This document shows, piece by piece, positions 26,149 through 32,847 of a DNA stretch of 64,000 bases. The translations under genes and the position numbers were made by a program. The stretch spans positions 372,001-436,000 of the forward strand of contig NZ_CP014164.1 in NCBI RefSeq assembly GCF_001543285.1, written 5' to 3'. This DNA is from Aerococcus viridans. GTDB lineage: Bacteria; Bacillota; Bacilli; Lactobacillales; Aerococcaceae. A model generated the notes under the pieces. That model did no database searches and had not been told where the DNA came from. It saw only the letters and a list, made by a program, of their open reading frames with translations. Every line of letters begins with the position of its first letter. Position 1 is the stretch's first letter.

Positions 26149-28314
26149 ATGCAACAAAAGAGACCTAACAGACCAAATAGAAACACCTTCATCAGAAGTG
26201 GTTTGCTGTGGCTGATTATGTTCTTTGCTTTGATGGCATTAGTTAGATCACTAACGAGTGATTCTACTGGTGGTACCACTGAAGAGTTAACACAATCAGA
26301 ATTCATTCAAACACTTTCTGATGGGGATGTAGAGCGTTTCTCTATCCAATCCAACGCCGGGGCTTACCAAATCCGCGGTGCTTACAAGGATTCGGGTGAG
26401 GAATCAAGTGAATCGTCATCGTCAACTAGTGATGGGATTCCAATTTTCCAAGATTTACAACAAAGTTCAGCTTCTGAGTTTGTGGTAAACGTATTGCCTA
26501 ATGACAACACAATCGCAATGATTACGGATGCAGCGAATGCGACCGGTACTGAAATGACGGCCTTAGAAGAAGACCAGTCTGGTATGTGGTTGAGCTTATT
26601 ATTCACTGCTGTACCGATTATTTTCTTCGTCGTGATTATGTACATGATGTTCAGCCAAAGCCAAGGTGGCGGTCGAAACAACCCAATGTCTATGGGTAAA
26701 TCGAAGGCTGTTGATCAATCGAAGAAAGAAGTAAAAGTACGATTCTCTGATGTCGCTGGTGCGGATGAAGAGAAACAAGAGTTGGTTGAAGTGGTGGACT
26801 TCTTGAAAGATCCACGTAAATTCCAAGCTTTAGGTGCACGCATTCCAAAAGGTGTGCTTTTAGAAGGTCCTCCAGGTACTGGTAAAACGTTACTTGCTAA
26901 AGCAGTTGCCGGTGAAGCTGGCGTGCCTTTCTACTCAATCTCAGGTTCTGAGTTTGTGGAAATGTTCGTTGGTGTCGGTGCTTCTCGTGTACGTGACTTA
27001 TTCGAGAATGCTAAGAAGAGTGCGCCATCGATCATCTTTATTGATGAGATTGATGCTGTTGGTCGTCGTCGTGGTGTTGGTCCAGGATCAGGGCATGATG
27101 AACGTGAGCAAACATTGAACCAATTGTTGGTTGAGATGGATGGTTTCTCTGAAAAAGATAATGTTATCGTGGTTGCGGCAACTAACCGTTCTGACGTATT
27201 GGACCCAGCTTTACTACGTCCAGGCCGTTTTGATAGACAGGTATTAGTTGGTCGTCCAGATGTTAAGGGTCGTGAAGCAATCTTGAAGGTACATGCCCGT
27301 AACAAGCCGTTCGGTCCAGGGGTAGACTTGAAAGTTCTTGCGCAACAAACCCCAGGATTTACTGGTGCTGAACTTGAAAACTTATTAAACGAGGCCGCTT
27401 TAGTGGCAGCTCGTGTAGATAAGAAACAAATTGATATGATTGATATTGATGAAGCGCAAGACCGCGTGATTGCTGGACCTGCTAAGAAAGATCGCGTGAT
27501 TTCTAAGGTTGAACGTCGTATGGTTGCTTACCACGAGGCTGGTCATACCATTGCTGGTTTAGTCCTAAGCGACGCCCGTGTAGTCCACAAGGTGACAATT
27601 GTACCGCGTGGTAAAGCTGGTGGTTATGCGATTATGCTTCCTCGTGAAGACCAAAACCTTTACACAACCAAAGACTTGCGTGAACAAGTGATTGGTTTAC
27701 TAGGTGGACGTGCCGCTGAACAATTAATCTTCAATACCCAAACTTCTGGAGCTTCTAATGACTTTGAACAAGCGACAGGTATTGTTCGTGCCATGATTAC
27801 TGAATACGGAATGAGTGAATTGCTTGGACCAATTTCATACGAAGGTAACCACTCAATGCGTGGGGCAGCTTCTGGTTATGCACAAAACAAATCTTACTCT
27901 GAACGCACGGCTGGTCAAATTGATGACGAAGTACGTAAGTTCATGGACGAGTGCTTAGACGAAGCAGAAAGTATCTTAGCTTCTCACCGTGATCAATTAG
28001 ATGTGATTGCTGAGAAATTATTAGAACTTGAAACATTAGATGAACGCACAATTCGCGCCTTATTCGAAACTGGTGAAATGCCAGAACCATTAGATGGCGA
28101 ACAAGAACGTGAATCAGAAGCTAAATCTTTTGAAGAAGTGAAAAAAGACTTACAACGTGGCGCTGAGCACCGTCAATACCGTAATGGTGAATGGTCTGAA
28201 GAAACGACTTCAGAAGACCAAACCGAAGCGGCTGACGATGTTAATGACTCTGATGACGACAGCGACGATCATCAAGGTCCACAAGGGCGAAACGCACATA
28301 TAGATCAAGACTAA
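26149..28314 (+). CDS. ftsH: ATP-dependent zinc metalloprotease FtsH
   Basis: A 721-residue membrane protease. Two membrane helices (near 20-37 and 146-167) flank a small extracytoplasmic domain. The AAA+ domain has GPPGTGKT (240-247) and [11 protein letters not shown], with the second region of homology in [19 protein letters not shown]. The zinc protease motif is YHEAGHT with HEAGH at 462-466. It degrades misfolded membrane and regulatory proteins as a hexamer. The last ~60 residues are strongly acidic (SDDDSDDH), longer than in many homologues. A two-way terminator follows. Confidence 0.97.
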
Positions 28315-28370
28315 GTAAGGGCGCGAGCGAACCCGACTAGGGTGTAAGAACCGACTTTTCTTGAATCAAT

Positions 28371-28406
28371 AAAAAACCTCCGATGACATTTTATCGGAGG
28401 TTTTTC
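28371..28406. terminator. Bidirectional terminator after ftsH
   Basis: AAAAAACCTCCGAT pairs with ATCGGAGGTTTTT around an 8-base loop. Confidence 0.9.
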
Positions 28407-28541
28407 AATGCAATAAAGAAGCGACTTTCCTAATACTTATAAACGTTTTTTTAAAGATGGACTATCTACATACCAATAAACGGGTTCAGCAAACGCAGTC
28501 AATATTTAGCAGTTTGCTTTACACCTTGCTAACTATTATAT

Positions 28542-28570
28542 TTTCACTGTTCGCCAAATTAGGTTAGAAT
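28542..28570 (+). promoter_or_regulatory. Promoter of hslO
   Basis: TTTCAC (28542-28547), a 17-base spacer and TAGAAT (28565-28570), ~60 bases before the hslO start. Nothing else is seen between the ftsH terminator and this promoter. Confidence 0.55.
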
Positions 28571-28631
28571 GGTAATTGAAAAGCGGCAAGCGAATAATGG
28601 GTGCTTAGCACCTAATAATGGAGTGAAATAA

Positions 28632-29507
28632 ATGACAGATAAATTAATTAAGGCAGTAGCCTTTGATGGTGAAGTTCGTATTACAGCTGTAGATGCTACG
28701 GGTGTTGTCCAAGAGGCACAAAAGAAACATGATACATGGTCTGCTTCTACAGCAGCTCTAGGGCGTACGTTAGTGGGTACTTTGATGATGGGGTCTGACA
28801 TTAAAGATGATGCCAAAATCACTGTCCAAATTAACGGGAATGGCCCAGCTGGTAAATTAGTGGCTGTTGCGGACGGTGAAGGAAATGTGAAAGGCTACGT
28901 TCAAGAGCCGCATATCAGCCTAGATCCAAACGACAAAGGCAAAATTGATGTACGTGGCGCGGTCGGAACGGAAGGTCTTTTTACCGTAACGAAAGATTTA
29001 GGTTTGAAAGAACCCTTCTCTGGTCAAGTGCCAATTGTTTCAGGTGAAATTGCTGAAGACTTCACGTACTATCTTGCTTATTCTGAACAAACGCCTTCTG
29101 CAGTTGGCTTGGGTGTCTTGGTGGATACGGATGAAACAGTGATTAACGCTGGTGGTTGGATGATCCAATTGATGCCAGGGGTGACTGAACCGTCTATTGA
29201 AGCCGTTGAAAAGGCCGTTGCTGAAACACCGCAAGTAACCGAATTATTGTCAAATGGCGCGACAGCCAAAGACATGATCAACCGTTTGTTAGGTGAAGAA
29301 AATGTCAAATTCTTAGATGAACGTGATGTGCAATTCGCTTGTGACTGTAACAAAGACCGGTTTGCAGCTGGATTAGCGACTTTACAAAAAGAAGAAATCA
29401 CAGCTATGATCGAAGAAGATAACGGGGCCGAAGTGGTATGTCAATTCTGTAATAAACGCTATCAATTCACGGCTGAAGATTTAAAAGGCATTGAAGACCA
29501 AGCTTAA
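28632..29507 (+). CDS. hslO: Redox-regulated chaperonin Hsp33
   Basis: A 291-residue cytoplasmic holdase that is switched on by oxidation. The zinc-binding cysteines are all present: CDC (Cys237, Cys239) and CQFC (Cys270, Cys273), in the usual CxC-X30-CxxC order. The N-terminal domain (STAALGRTLVGTLMMG, GPAGKLVAVAD) is typical. AATGGAGTG precedes the ATG. It is followed by the cysK-position gene as in Bacillus. Confidence 0.96.
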   Translation: MTDKLIKAVAFDGEVRITAVDATGVVQEAQKKHDTWSASTAALGRTLVGTLMMGSDIKDDAKITVQINGNGPAGKLVAVADGEGNVKGYVQEPHISLDPNDKGKIDVRGAVGTEGLFTVTKDLGLKEPFSGQVPIVSGEIAEDFTYYLAYSEQTPSAVGLGVLVDTDETVINAGGWMIQLMPGVTEPSIEAVEKAVAETPQVTELLSNGATAKDMINRLLGEENVKFLDERDVQFACDCNKDRFAAGLATLQKEEITAMIEEDNGAEVVCQFCNKRYQFTAEDLKGIEDQA

Positions 29508-29518
29508 GGCCAAGGTTT

Positions 29519-29526
29519 GCTATAAT
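29519..29526 (+). promoter_or_regulatory. Extended -10 promoter of the cysteine-synthase-like gene
   Basis: TTTGCTATAAT, with TATAAT at 29521-29526 and TG one base upstream. No good -35 box is seen. Confidence 0.45.
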
Positions 29527-29582
29527 AGGCATAATCAACAAGGCTATGCAATCATTTTACAGAGAAAGGTTTGAGCTAGAAG

Positions 29583-30512
29583 ATGGAAGTTACAAATTAT
29601 ATGAGTCAATTAATCGGAGAAACACCATTACTGAAATTGCAACGATCAGTCCCATATAAAGCCGCACAGGTATATGTCAAACTCGAAACAGCTAACCCAA
29701 CCGGATCAATTTACGACCGTGTTGCCTTAAACATGATTGAAGTAGCGGAAAATGAGGGTCGCTTACAAGCGGACCAACAAATTGTGGTCGCAACCACAGC
29801 CGAAGTTGCTGCCTCTTTCGCCTTACTAGGAGCGAGCAAGGGTTATGATACAAAAGCCTTTGTCCCAGATACAACCACGCACCATGACTTGACAGTCTTA
29901 CGCGCATACGGGGCTCAAGTGCAACTAGTAGCCGGTAAACAAGGTGTTGTAGATGCCATGACCCAAGCGCGGGCTTACGCTGAAGCAGGTAACCACCTAT
30001 TTATCGACGTTTACGATGACGGGGGCAATGCTGCTGTCCATGTAAAAACAACAGGACCAGAAATCATCGAAGCCTTAAACGGCGTGCCAGATGCCTTTGT
30101 ATCAACCATCGCAACTGGTGGAACGATGACGGGTGTTGGAACAGCCCTTAGACAGGAAAACAAGAATATCCAACTCTACGCGGTAGAAGATAAGGATAGC
30201 AAATTCTTGTCAGGTGAAATGGCTAAGCCAAGTGTAGCTACTGGATTCAACCCAGGTTTATTGCCTTTAAATCTGGATACCACTTTATACGACAGTATTG
30301 TGGCTATTGATTTGGCCAAGGCCAAAGAAACTAGTCGTTTGTTAGCCATCAATGAAGGTTTATTGGTAGGGCCAGCAGGTGGTGCGGCAGTTGCAGCAGC
30401 TATCGCAGTGGCTAAAACACTAAGCCAAAACAAAAAAGTAGTCGTTGTTATTCCAGATGATGGTAGACGATTTGTTGCTGAAGGTGCTTTCGACTTCAAT
30501 ACAATCAATTAA
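29583..30512 (+). CDS. Cysteine synthase (CysK)-family protein lacking the PLP lysine; probable pseudoenzyme
   Basis: A 309-residue full-length member of the O-acetylserine sulfhydrylase fold, starting MEVTNYMSQLIGETPLLKL. CysK uses the Lys of NPGGSVKDR to bind PLP. Here that block reads NPTGSIYDR, so residue 44 is Tyr. The substrate loop TSGNTG is replaced by TTAEVA. The phosphate-binding loop is kept (ATGGTMTGVG), and the C-terminal PDTGERY is altered to PDDGRRF. The frame is open, with normal codon use and a good start context, so it is not a simple pseudogene. It probably cannot make cysteine by the known mechanism. It may act as a binding or regulatory partner, a role known for CysK (for example with CymR in B. 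subtilis), but that is inference. The position after hslO is that of B. subtilis cysK. Confidence 0.88.
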   Translation: MEVTNYMSQLIGETPLLKLQRSVPYKAAQVYVKLETANPTGSIYDRVALNMIEVAENEGRLQADQQIVVATTAEVAASFALLGASKGYDTKAFVPDTTTHHDLTVLRAYGAQVQLVAGKQGVVDAMTQARAYAEAGNHLFIDVYDDGGNAAVHVKTTGPEIIEALNGVPDAFVSTIATGGTMTGVGTALRQENKNIQLYAVEDKDSKFLSGEMAKPSVATGFNPGLLPLNLDTTLYDSIVAIDLAKAKETSRLLAINEGLLVGPAGGAAVAAAIAVAKTLSQNKKVVVVIPDDGRRFVAEGAFDFNTIN

Positions 30513-30561
30513 CAGAAGTAATTGAGTAAATAAACATTATTAAAAGTGAAAGAAGGCTTTT

Positions 30562-30897
30562 ATGAAGGAAGCAGAAGAACATCTTGAGGATCTACATGGT
30601 ACGGTTGAACCGGAGCAAATTCAACATTTGAGTAAAATGTTTAAGGCTTTGGGGGATCCGACAAGATTACGCATACTATATTTATTGGGTGAAGGCGAAA
30701 TGATGGCTACTAAGATTTCTGAAGAATTAGGTTTGGAGCAATCAGCAGTGTCCCATCAATTAAAGAAATTGTTTGAATTGCGGCTAGTAAAGAAACGTAA
30801 GGAAAGAAATACGGTCATTTACAGCCAGGCAGACAGCCATGTCCTGCAAATTTTAACGGATGCCTTTACGCATATTAAAGAAGAGGATGACCAATAA
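30562..30897 (+). CDS. ArsR/SmtB-family metal-sensing repressor
   Basis: A 111-residue winged-helix protein. The core is KALGDPTRLRILYLL and the recognition helix is in LEQSAVSHQLKKLFELRLVKK. The alpha-3N ELCVCD motif is absent. The C-terminal helix has Asp91, His93, His104 and Glu107, with the same D-x-H-x10-H-x2-E spacing as the alpha-5 zinc site of SmtB (CzrA has His at the last place). It is therefore probably a zinc-type sensor that lets go of DNA when metal binds. No metal transporter lies next to it; lysS follows. Its target genes are unknown. Confidence 0.88.
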   Translation: MKEAEEHLEDLHGTVEPEQIQHLSKMFKALGDPTRLRILYLLGEGEMMATKISEELGLEQSAVSHQLKKLFELRLVKKRKERNTVIYSQADSHVLQILTDAFTHIKEEDDQ

Positions 30898-30930
30898 TTG
30901 AAAGCATAAGCAGTTCCTACCATAATAAGG

Positions 30931-30959
30931 TTTTCTTTAACCTGAAAATTTGGTACAAT
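30931..30959 (+). promoter_or_regulatory. Promoter of lysS (extended -10)
   Basis: TGGTACAAT (TACAAT at 30954-30959) with a moderate TTTTCT 17 bases upstream. About 165 bases of leader follow; it contains small hairpins (ACAGTTT/AAACTGT) but no T-box signature. Confidence 0.45.
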
Positions 30960-31113
30960 GCTTGTGTTTTCGTATTCTCATAGAGAGACGACAGTTTATC
31001 CGAAAAAACTGTTCTGATAGAAATTGTCGACAAGGGTCGCTTGCTTTTTTGGCAGAAAGTTGGCAATATAGATAAGTATCGAATTGACTAGAGGATAACG
31101 ATAGACAAAGTAA

Positions 31114-32646
<1,533 letters not shown>

Positions 32647-32656
32647 CAGTAAGTAT

Positions 32657-32712
32657 AAAAAGAGGCCACACTTTCCTTTGCTAGCCGGGGGAGAAGTGGT
32701 CTTTATTTTTTT
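32657..32712 (+). terminator. Terminator after lysS
   Basis: AGAGGCCAC (32661-32669) pairs with GTGGTCTTT (32696-32704), followed by ATTTTTTT. Confidence 0.75.
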
Positions 32713-32723
32713 GAGATTATTTG

Positions 32724-32752
32724 TTGACGCGACCTTGCGAATGTGATAAATT
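32724..32752 (+). promoter_or_regulatory. Promoter of the str operon
   Basis: TTGACG (32724-32729), a 17-base spacer and TAAATT (32747-32752). It leaves a leader of about 205 bases before rpsL. Confidence 0.7.
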
Positions 32753-32847
32753 ATATAAGGTGCTTTTTGTATGCAGATTCCTGTATTTGTATCCAAATCG
32801 AACAGTCGTGCTGACTGGTACATTAGCACACAAACATTGAAAAGCTG

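Follow-up and report, generated by a model that had tools for sequence, protein, structure and literature searches.

An hslO-linked CysK homologue of Aerococcus without the PLP-binding lysine, probably kept for a non-catalytic role

Pseudo-CysK and its active site

The gene at 29583..30512 (+) of the window (the whole 64,000-nucleotide stretch of Aerococcus viridans DNA that was analysed) is an orthologue of the hslO-linked cysK and encodes a full-length fold-type-II (PALP) protein of 309 aa without the PLP-binding lysine, referred to here as pseudo-CysK. Catalysis has probably moved to a cysK-cysE operon elsewhere in the genome, and the hslO-linked CysK was probably kept as a pseudoenzyme with a non-catalytic, likely protein-binding, role.

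The initial annotation had described an open frame of full length with a changed lysine block and a changed substrate loop, and each of these readings held. The frame ran uninterrupted through 309 codons on the + strand, residues 38-46 were NPTGSIYDR vs. NPGGSVKDR in cysteine synthases, and codon 44 was TAC (29712..29714, +), which gives Tyr44 where 47/47 canonical rows of the alignment had Lys. Residues 71-76 (29793..29810, +) were TTAEVA in place of TSGNTG, the substrate- and peptide-binding loop. Val143 (30009..30011, +) replaced an invariant Gln that contacts substrate and peptide, and Ala265 (30375..30377, +) replaced an invariant Ser that contacts PLP; the roles of the loop and of both residues are those given in the portions of PMC12895370 drawn on here. 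The phosphate loop, described as kept, was ATGGT (residues 177-181; 30111..30125, +) vs. canonical GTGGT, so that Thr178, Gly179 and Thr181 were kept and the first Gly was changed to Ala. Chance or assembly error as the origin of Tyr44 was excluded by the Lys of all 47 canonical rows and by the presence of Tyr44 in the orthologues.

The alignment had 58 rows, namely 47 canonical (39 distinct sequences), five Tyr-type and six other altered, and 60 positions were taken as invariant, each conserved in at least 95% of the canonical rows. Pseudo-CysK of the window kept 41/60 of these positions and lost 19/60, including K44, S72, G73, N74, T75, G76, E101, R102, Q143, G177 and S265, and the MSxER lid was gone. 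Four of the eight PLP contacts given in section 2.5 of PMC12895370, mapped by motif, were lost (K44, N74, G177 and S265) and four were kept (T178, G179, T181 and D292). Section 2.6 of that paper gives four residues as core contacts of the CysE tail, of which T71 was kept and S72, T75 and Q143 were lost. The altered stretches overlapped three segments that, according to the same paper, move to close over bound substrate (TSGNT, MPETMSLE and EPAKGMKG). With an active-site set drawn up by hand, the window protein kept 8/23 positions in the set vs. 68/98 elsewhere (p = 0.003). Losses were also concentrated in the active site in genome G011 (p = 0.0009) and not significantly so in G003 (p = 0.34), G049 (p = 0.14) or G050 (p = 0.57), which makes the concentration significant in two of five lineages. 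The chemistry of O-acetylserine sulfhydrylase (OASS) requires an internal aldimine with the active-site lysine, according to the same portions of PMC12895370; with Tyr44 in place of the lysine, the window protein would be unable to form this aldimine and so would not be a cysteine synthase.

Descent of the window protein from CysK was evident in all comparisons of family and fold. Pfam PALP (PF00291) matched residues 8-292 with 203.5 bits (cut-off 35), and the nearest solved structures by sequence were CysKs (9jxu, 2egu and 8srt; identity to solved CysKs about 38-40%). The AlphaFold model had a mean pLDDT of 89.2 and a pTM of 0.89, and its best PDB match was S. aureus CysK (TM-score 0.94); a CysK-like model was to be expected because canonical CysKs were among the 34 rows of the input alignment. 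The NCBIfam cysK model TIGR01139 was passed by 6/6 canonical CysKs (362-442 bits) and missed by the window protein (251 vs. 350.95 bits). Four of the four other altered copies were also below the cut-off, G050 narrowly (336 bits) and G011 without a match at E 1e-60. The window protein is thus a member of the PALP fold superfamily that ought not to be annotated as a cysteine synthase. Genes of this kind, about 40% identical to real CysK, are likely to receive that name, although their products would be unable to work by the known mechanism.

Orthologues, selection and number of losses

The order of the locus in the window genome (G000, 2.2 Mb) was tilS-hpt-ftsH-hslO-cysK-arsR-lysS. The upstream neighbour hslO (28632..29507, +), which encodes Hsp33 and defines the conserved locus, adjoined cysK in 11/15 Aerococcus genomes, and Hsp33 was found in 15/15. 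In the remaining four genomes (G001, G007, G008 and G009) hslO was followed directly by dusB and the linked cysK was absent. A linked dusB was present in eight Aerococcus genomes, located between hslO or cysK and lysS; the genomes with Tyr44 (Tyr clade) had arsR in its place. The best Dus matches of the Tyr clade and of G002 and G010 were elsewhere in the genome and scored lower.

Tyr44 was present in 5/5 close orthologues, all at the same locus: the window genome, G014 (97% identical to the window protein), G012 (96%), G006 (94%) and G005 (72%). Contig L036 of Aerococcus sp. UBA6277, which probably equals the G006 contig, also carried Tyr44 in a copy 94% identical to the window protein, and was the single locus returned by a scan of genome contigs for further Tyr-type copies. 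All 462 records returned by a search of plasmids were below 60% identity. Lysine, which the initial annotation had proposed to look for in close relatives, was found at this position in none of the close orthologues and occurred only in the syntenic, canonical copies of G010, G002 and G013, which were about 48% identical to the window protein and had lost 0/60 invariant positions.

The other linked copies of Aerococcus were altered in different ways. G003 and G004 had Arg44, with NLTGSGRDR and IDDGYFG. In G011 the lysine was kept (NPTGHIKDR), TSGNTG was replaced by CADFVT and the phosphate loop read STGAS. Five of the six genomes of g16, a second genus of Aerococcaceae, were covered, and a linked copy was seen in each; all five copies kept Lys. 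TSGNTG was TDGNAx in G049, G050 and G051, and G053 and G054 had an altered loop and frames broken at different places. In these last two, cysK was split between two frames before (G053, L075:4983-5866) or within (G054, L076:4962-5890) the phosphate-loop motif, which may be either real decay or sequencing error, the two being indistinguishable here. Two genomes were covered in genus g19, and the linked copy was canonical in both (G071, and G068 with adjacency judged by coordinates). Altered linked copies were seen only in Aerococcus and g16.

Outside the family the linked copy was uniformly canonical. HslO was searched for in 158 genomes of the order, and the stretch behind hslO was taken from 60 of them (53 from other families and seven from this family, with the Streptococcaceae-like f4 not included). 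cysK was behind hslO in 12/60 (eight of family f2, one of f6 and three of f7), and 12/12 of these copies kept both Lys and TSGNTG, so that a linked canonical CysK is likely the ancestral state. In B. subtilis, cysK presumably adjoins hslO as well.

The initial annotation had named a neutral substitution pattern as evidence against a conserved protein; the pattern was purifying. By the Nei-Gojobori method, omega was 0.089-0.166 in the six pairs among four close Tyr-type genomes (dS 0.13-0.23; 10 to 19 non-synonymous vs. 26 to 43 synonymous changes). Fisher tests gave p values of 3e-13, 1e-9 and 6e-15 for the window genome vs. G014, G012 and G006, respectively. Pairs with G005 were saturated at synonymous sites. 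The Arg-type pair G003/G004 had an omega of 0.060 (31 non-synonymous vs. 108 synonymous changes). In the same close pairs omega was 0.018-0.338 for neighbour genes and 0.065-0.104 for the canonical CysK linked to cysE. Identity between the window genome and G005 was 72% for pseudo-CysK and 85% for the catalytic paralogue. Pseudo-CysK is by these counts clearly constrained, though less than the catalytic paralogue. With Tyr44 fixed in 5/5 orthologues, which represent five species, purifying selection and an intact cysK elsewhere in the genome, the earlier proposal of a conserved pseudoenzyme stood.

The gene tree implies at least two losses of the lysine, one to Tyr and one to Arg, and the g16 alteration is separate from the losses in Aerococcus. 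How the Aerococcus copies group depended on the genes used. The gene tree of the linked copies united the eight altered Aerococcus copies (support 99/96, and 98/95 in a second tree), and a group of the Tyr-type copies with G010 and G002 was rejected (p = 0.015, and p = 0.013 without the 60 columns). These results point to a single loss in Aerococcus, after which G010 and G002 would have regained a canonical gene. That rejection was lost when the longest branch, G011, was left out (p = 0.069), however, and in any case the gene tree requires the lysine to change twice. In a tree of four neighbouring proteins, G010 and G002 grouped with the Tyr clade (93/94), and the eight altered copies were rejected as one group (p = 0.028). 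Exactly seven of the 15 genomes, the five of the Tyr clade together with G002 and G010, lacked the linked dusB, which the remaining eight had. A single loss with return of the gene is on balance doubtful, and we favour parallel loss, in which the gene-tree grouping would be an effect of long-branch attraction, though the point is contested.

The cysK-cysE operon and the role of pseudo-CysK

An intact cysK, which the initial annotation had advised looking for, was found twice elsewhere in the window genome, each time in canonical form (NPSKSVKDR at G000:C1:219697 and NPSGSVKDR at G000:C1:329111). A cysK directly beside cysE was found elsewhere in 11 Aerococcus genomes, and the linked copy was altered in eight of these and absent in three (G001, G008 and G009). 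The linked copy was intact in exactly three Aerococcus genomes, G010, G002 and G013, all without a cysK-cysE operon elsewhere; in G010 and G002 there was one CysK match each, and cysE was on a different contig. In G013 the best cysE match (52 bits) was not a real one, and the presence there of a second canonical CysK unaccompanied by cysE weighs against the operon explanation. G007 (85% complete) had neither a linked cysK nor a cysK-cysE pair. The 11-to-3 split had a chance of 1 in 364 with relatedness ignored, which is an upper bound on its strength since relatedness matters.

The cysE of the window genome (L107:1450-2022, G000:C1 near 330042) directly followed a canonical cysK and its product ended in EYSI. 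This C-terminal Ile is as in classical cysteine synthase complexes and points to such a complex in Aerococcus, in which the partner of CysE in the window genome would presumably be the neighbouring canonical CysK. An unlinked second CysK of G004 (L071:4965-5936) kept Lys, had GGSIKTRT and TTGNTG, and had lost 7/60 invariant positions; it is possibly another altered cysteine synthase.

In the explanation that we consider probable, cysteine synthesis would have passed to the cysK-cysE operon, so that the linked copy was no longer bound to catalysis, and the linked copy would have been retained for a second, non-catalytic job of the hslO-linked CysK. That job would most likely be that of a dimeric protein-binding or regulatory partner. 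It would no longer be done through the usual pocket for the CysE tail, because only one of its four core contacts is left. The likeliest partners, as a guess, would be the co-occurring active CysK/CysE pair or, in the Tyr clade, the neighbouring ArsR; Hsp33 and a CysK-CysE pair co-occurred in all eight genomes with altered copies, and ArsR was at the locus in the Tyr clade only. A decoy for the CysE tail that uses the usual pocket was disfavoured, with 1/4 core contacts kept. The faster evolution of pseudo-CysK than of the catalytic paralogue counts against the probable explanation, as a loosely constrained protein would evolve in this way. It is also possible, more tentatively, that the hslO-linked CysK of Bacilli has an ancient second job, and that Aerococcaceae stripped the catalytic site at least twice, in different ways, where the operon took over.

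The alternatives were judged by the pocket, the neighbouring gene, the remaining PLP contacts and the state of the frames. In the first, pseudo-CysK would be a ligand sensor or a new enzyme, its phosphate loop would hold another phosphorylated molecule, and its reshaped pocket (Tyr44, Glu74, Val143 and Ala265) would sense that molecule or do PLP-free chemistry. Tyr44 was fixed rather than variable, T178, G179 and T181 of the phosphate loop were kept, and Tyr44, Thr72, Ala73, Ala76, His101, Asp102, Val143, Ala177, Ala265, Arg295, Phe297 and Ala299 were identical in 5/5 orthologues, all of which is consistent with a pocket in use. Between the window genome and G005, however, the two proteins agreed at 40/41 of the kept invariant positions, at 13/19 of the lost ones and at 167/249 of the others. 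The altered pocket thus appears no more conserved than the rest of the protein, no new pocket function is visible in these counts, and they weigh mildly against one. The pockets of the Arg-type copies and of G011 were also quite different, with STGAS as the loop in G011. A sensor or new enzyme is unlikely.

The second alternative concerns the 111-aa ArsR/SmtB-family regulator encoded at 30562..30897 (+), which pseudo-CysK would regulate in a two-gene module linking metal and thiol status. The initial annotation had described the cysK locus as lying beside a zinc-sensor-like ArsR gene; this was true of the five Tyr-type genomes, and the arrangement was local, as arsR was found in none other of 17 linked loci. 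In 5/5 Tyr-type genomes arsR was 50 bases downstream of pseudo-cysK on the same strand and its product was 93-99% identical, which agrees with a module. The last helix of ArsR was DSHVLQILTDAFTHIKEE, and Asp, His, His and Glu, read by eye, were at the places of zinc-sensor ligands. In spacing, the helix resembles the zinc site of CzrA/SmtB sensors, the final ligand position being taken by Glu. Altered copies of the Arg type, of G011 and of the second genus lacked an adjoining arsR, and no inverted repeat of at least 7 bases was found before pseudo-cysK, both of which argue against the module. Regulation of ArsR by pseudo-CysK was judged quite improbable.

The region upstream of pseudo-cysK contained TGCTATAAT (29518..29526, +), a putative extended -10-like element. 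Its resemblance to an extended -10 and the presence of TGNTATANT in 5/5 Tyr-type genomes suggest that pseudo-cysK may be transcribed from a promoter of its own. The consensus promoter scan did not list the element at 29518-29526, and its promoter count was 6 vs. 6.2 in shuffles. Terminator sites were no more numerous than in shuffles, and Rfam gave no match at the gathering score in 28000-32800, so that no riboswitch or other RNA element was found there.

That pseudo-CysK is still a PLP enzyme, with PLP held without lysine or through another lysine, is very unlikely. Half of the PLP contacts remain, and crystal structures exist for Lys mutants of relatives (the K95A and K43A PDB entries), which agrees with binding of PLP; the lysine, the Asn, the Gln and the Ser contact were all gone together, however, and the changed motifs contained no new lysine. 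Least probable of all is a functionless, slowly decaying pseudogene, to which the loss of the linked copy in 4/15 Aerococcus and the broken frame in two g16 genomes would point, and which is contradicted for the Tyr and Arg types by open frames and purifying selection.

Comparison with known systems

Several moonlighting roles of CysK have been reported and are hard to separate from catalysis. Retention of the altered copies despite loss of the catalytic lysine and, for most lineages, of the pocket for the CysE tail means that selection acts on something else. If the second job is indeed ancient, the altered copies would be natural separation-of-function proteins that show the second job only, and they make a second role of the hslO-linked CysK directly testable. 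No paper on a lysine-less bacterial CysK was found in the literature search, which is not proof of absence.

Pseudo-CysK resembled CysK/OASS A of the B. subtilis type (TIGR01139) in fold, length and PALP domain, and canonical linked copies share its hslO locus. It differed from it in lacking the PLP lysine, TSGNTG and Gln143, in its changed Ser265, and in scoring 100 bits below the cut-off. The pairing of B. subtilis CysK with the repressor CymR is a documented non-catalytic, regulatory role of CysK in Bacilli, in the portions of the literature drawn on (PMC4961446 and PMC6522883 among them). The window genome differed in having no Rrf2-family match (E 0.001). Rrf2 matches over the cut-off were found only in G005, G006, G007, G012 and G014, with none over it in G003, G004 or G011, and a CymR co-repressor was rejected as the common partner.

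The C. elegans protein CYSL-1 is a CysK homologue that has lost biosynthetic activity and acts by binding EGL-9; it binds the C-terminal Ile of its partner and retains the bisulfide site, according to the part of PMC5562914 consulted. The window protein differs in that its peptide pocket is largely gone. In the Ssd1/Dis3L2 pseudonucleases, as treated in the excerpts of PMC8097288 used here, the active site was lost repeatedly and a second function was kept. These belong to an unrelated enzyme family in fungi and their second function is known, but a two-job protein that hands catalysis to another gene, as has been proposed for them, fits the pattern of pseudo-CysK.
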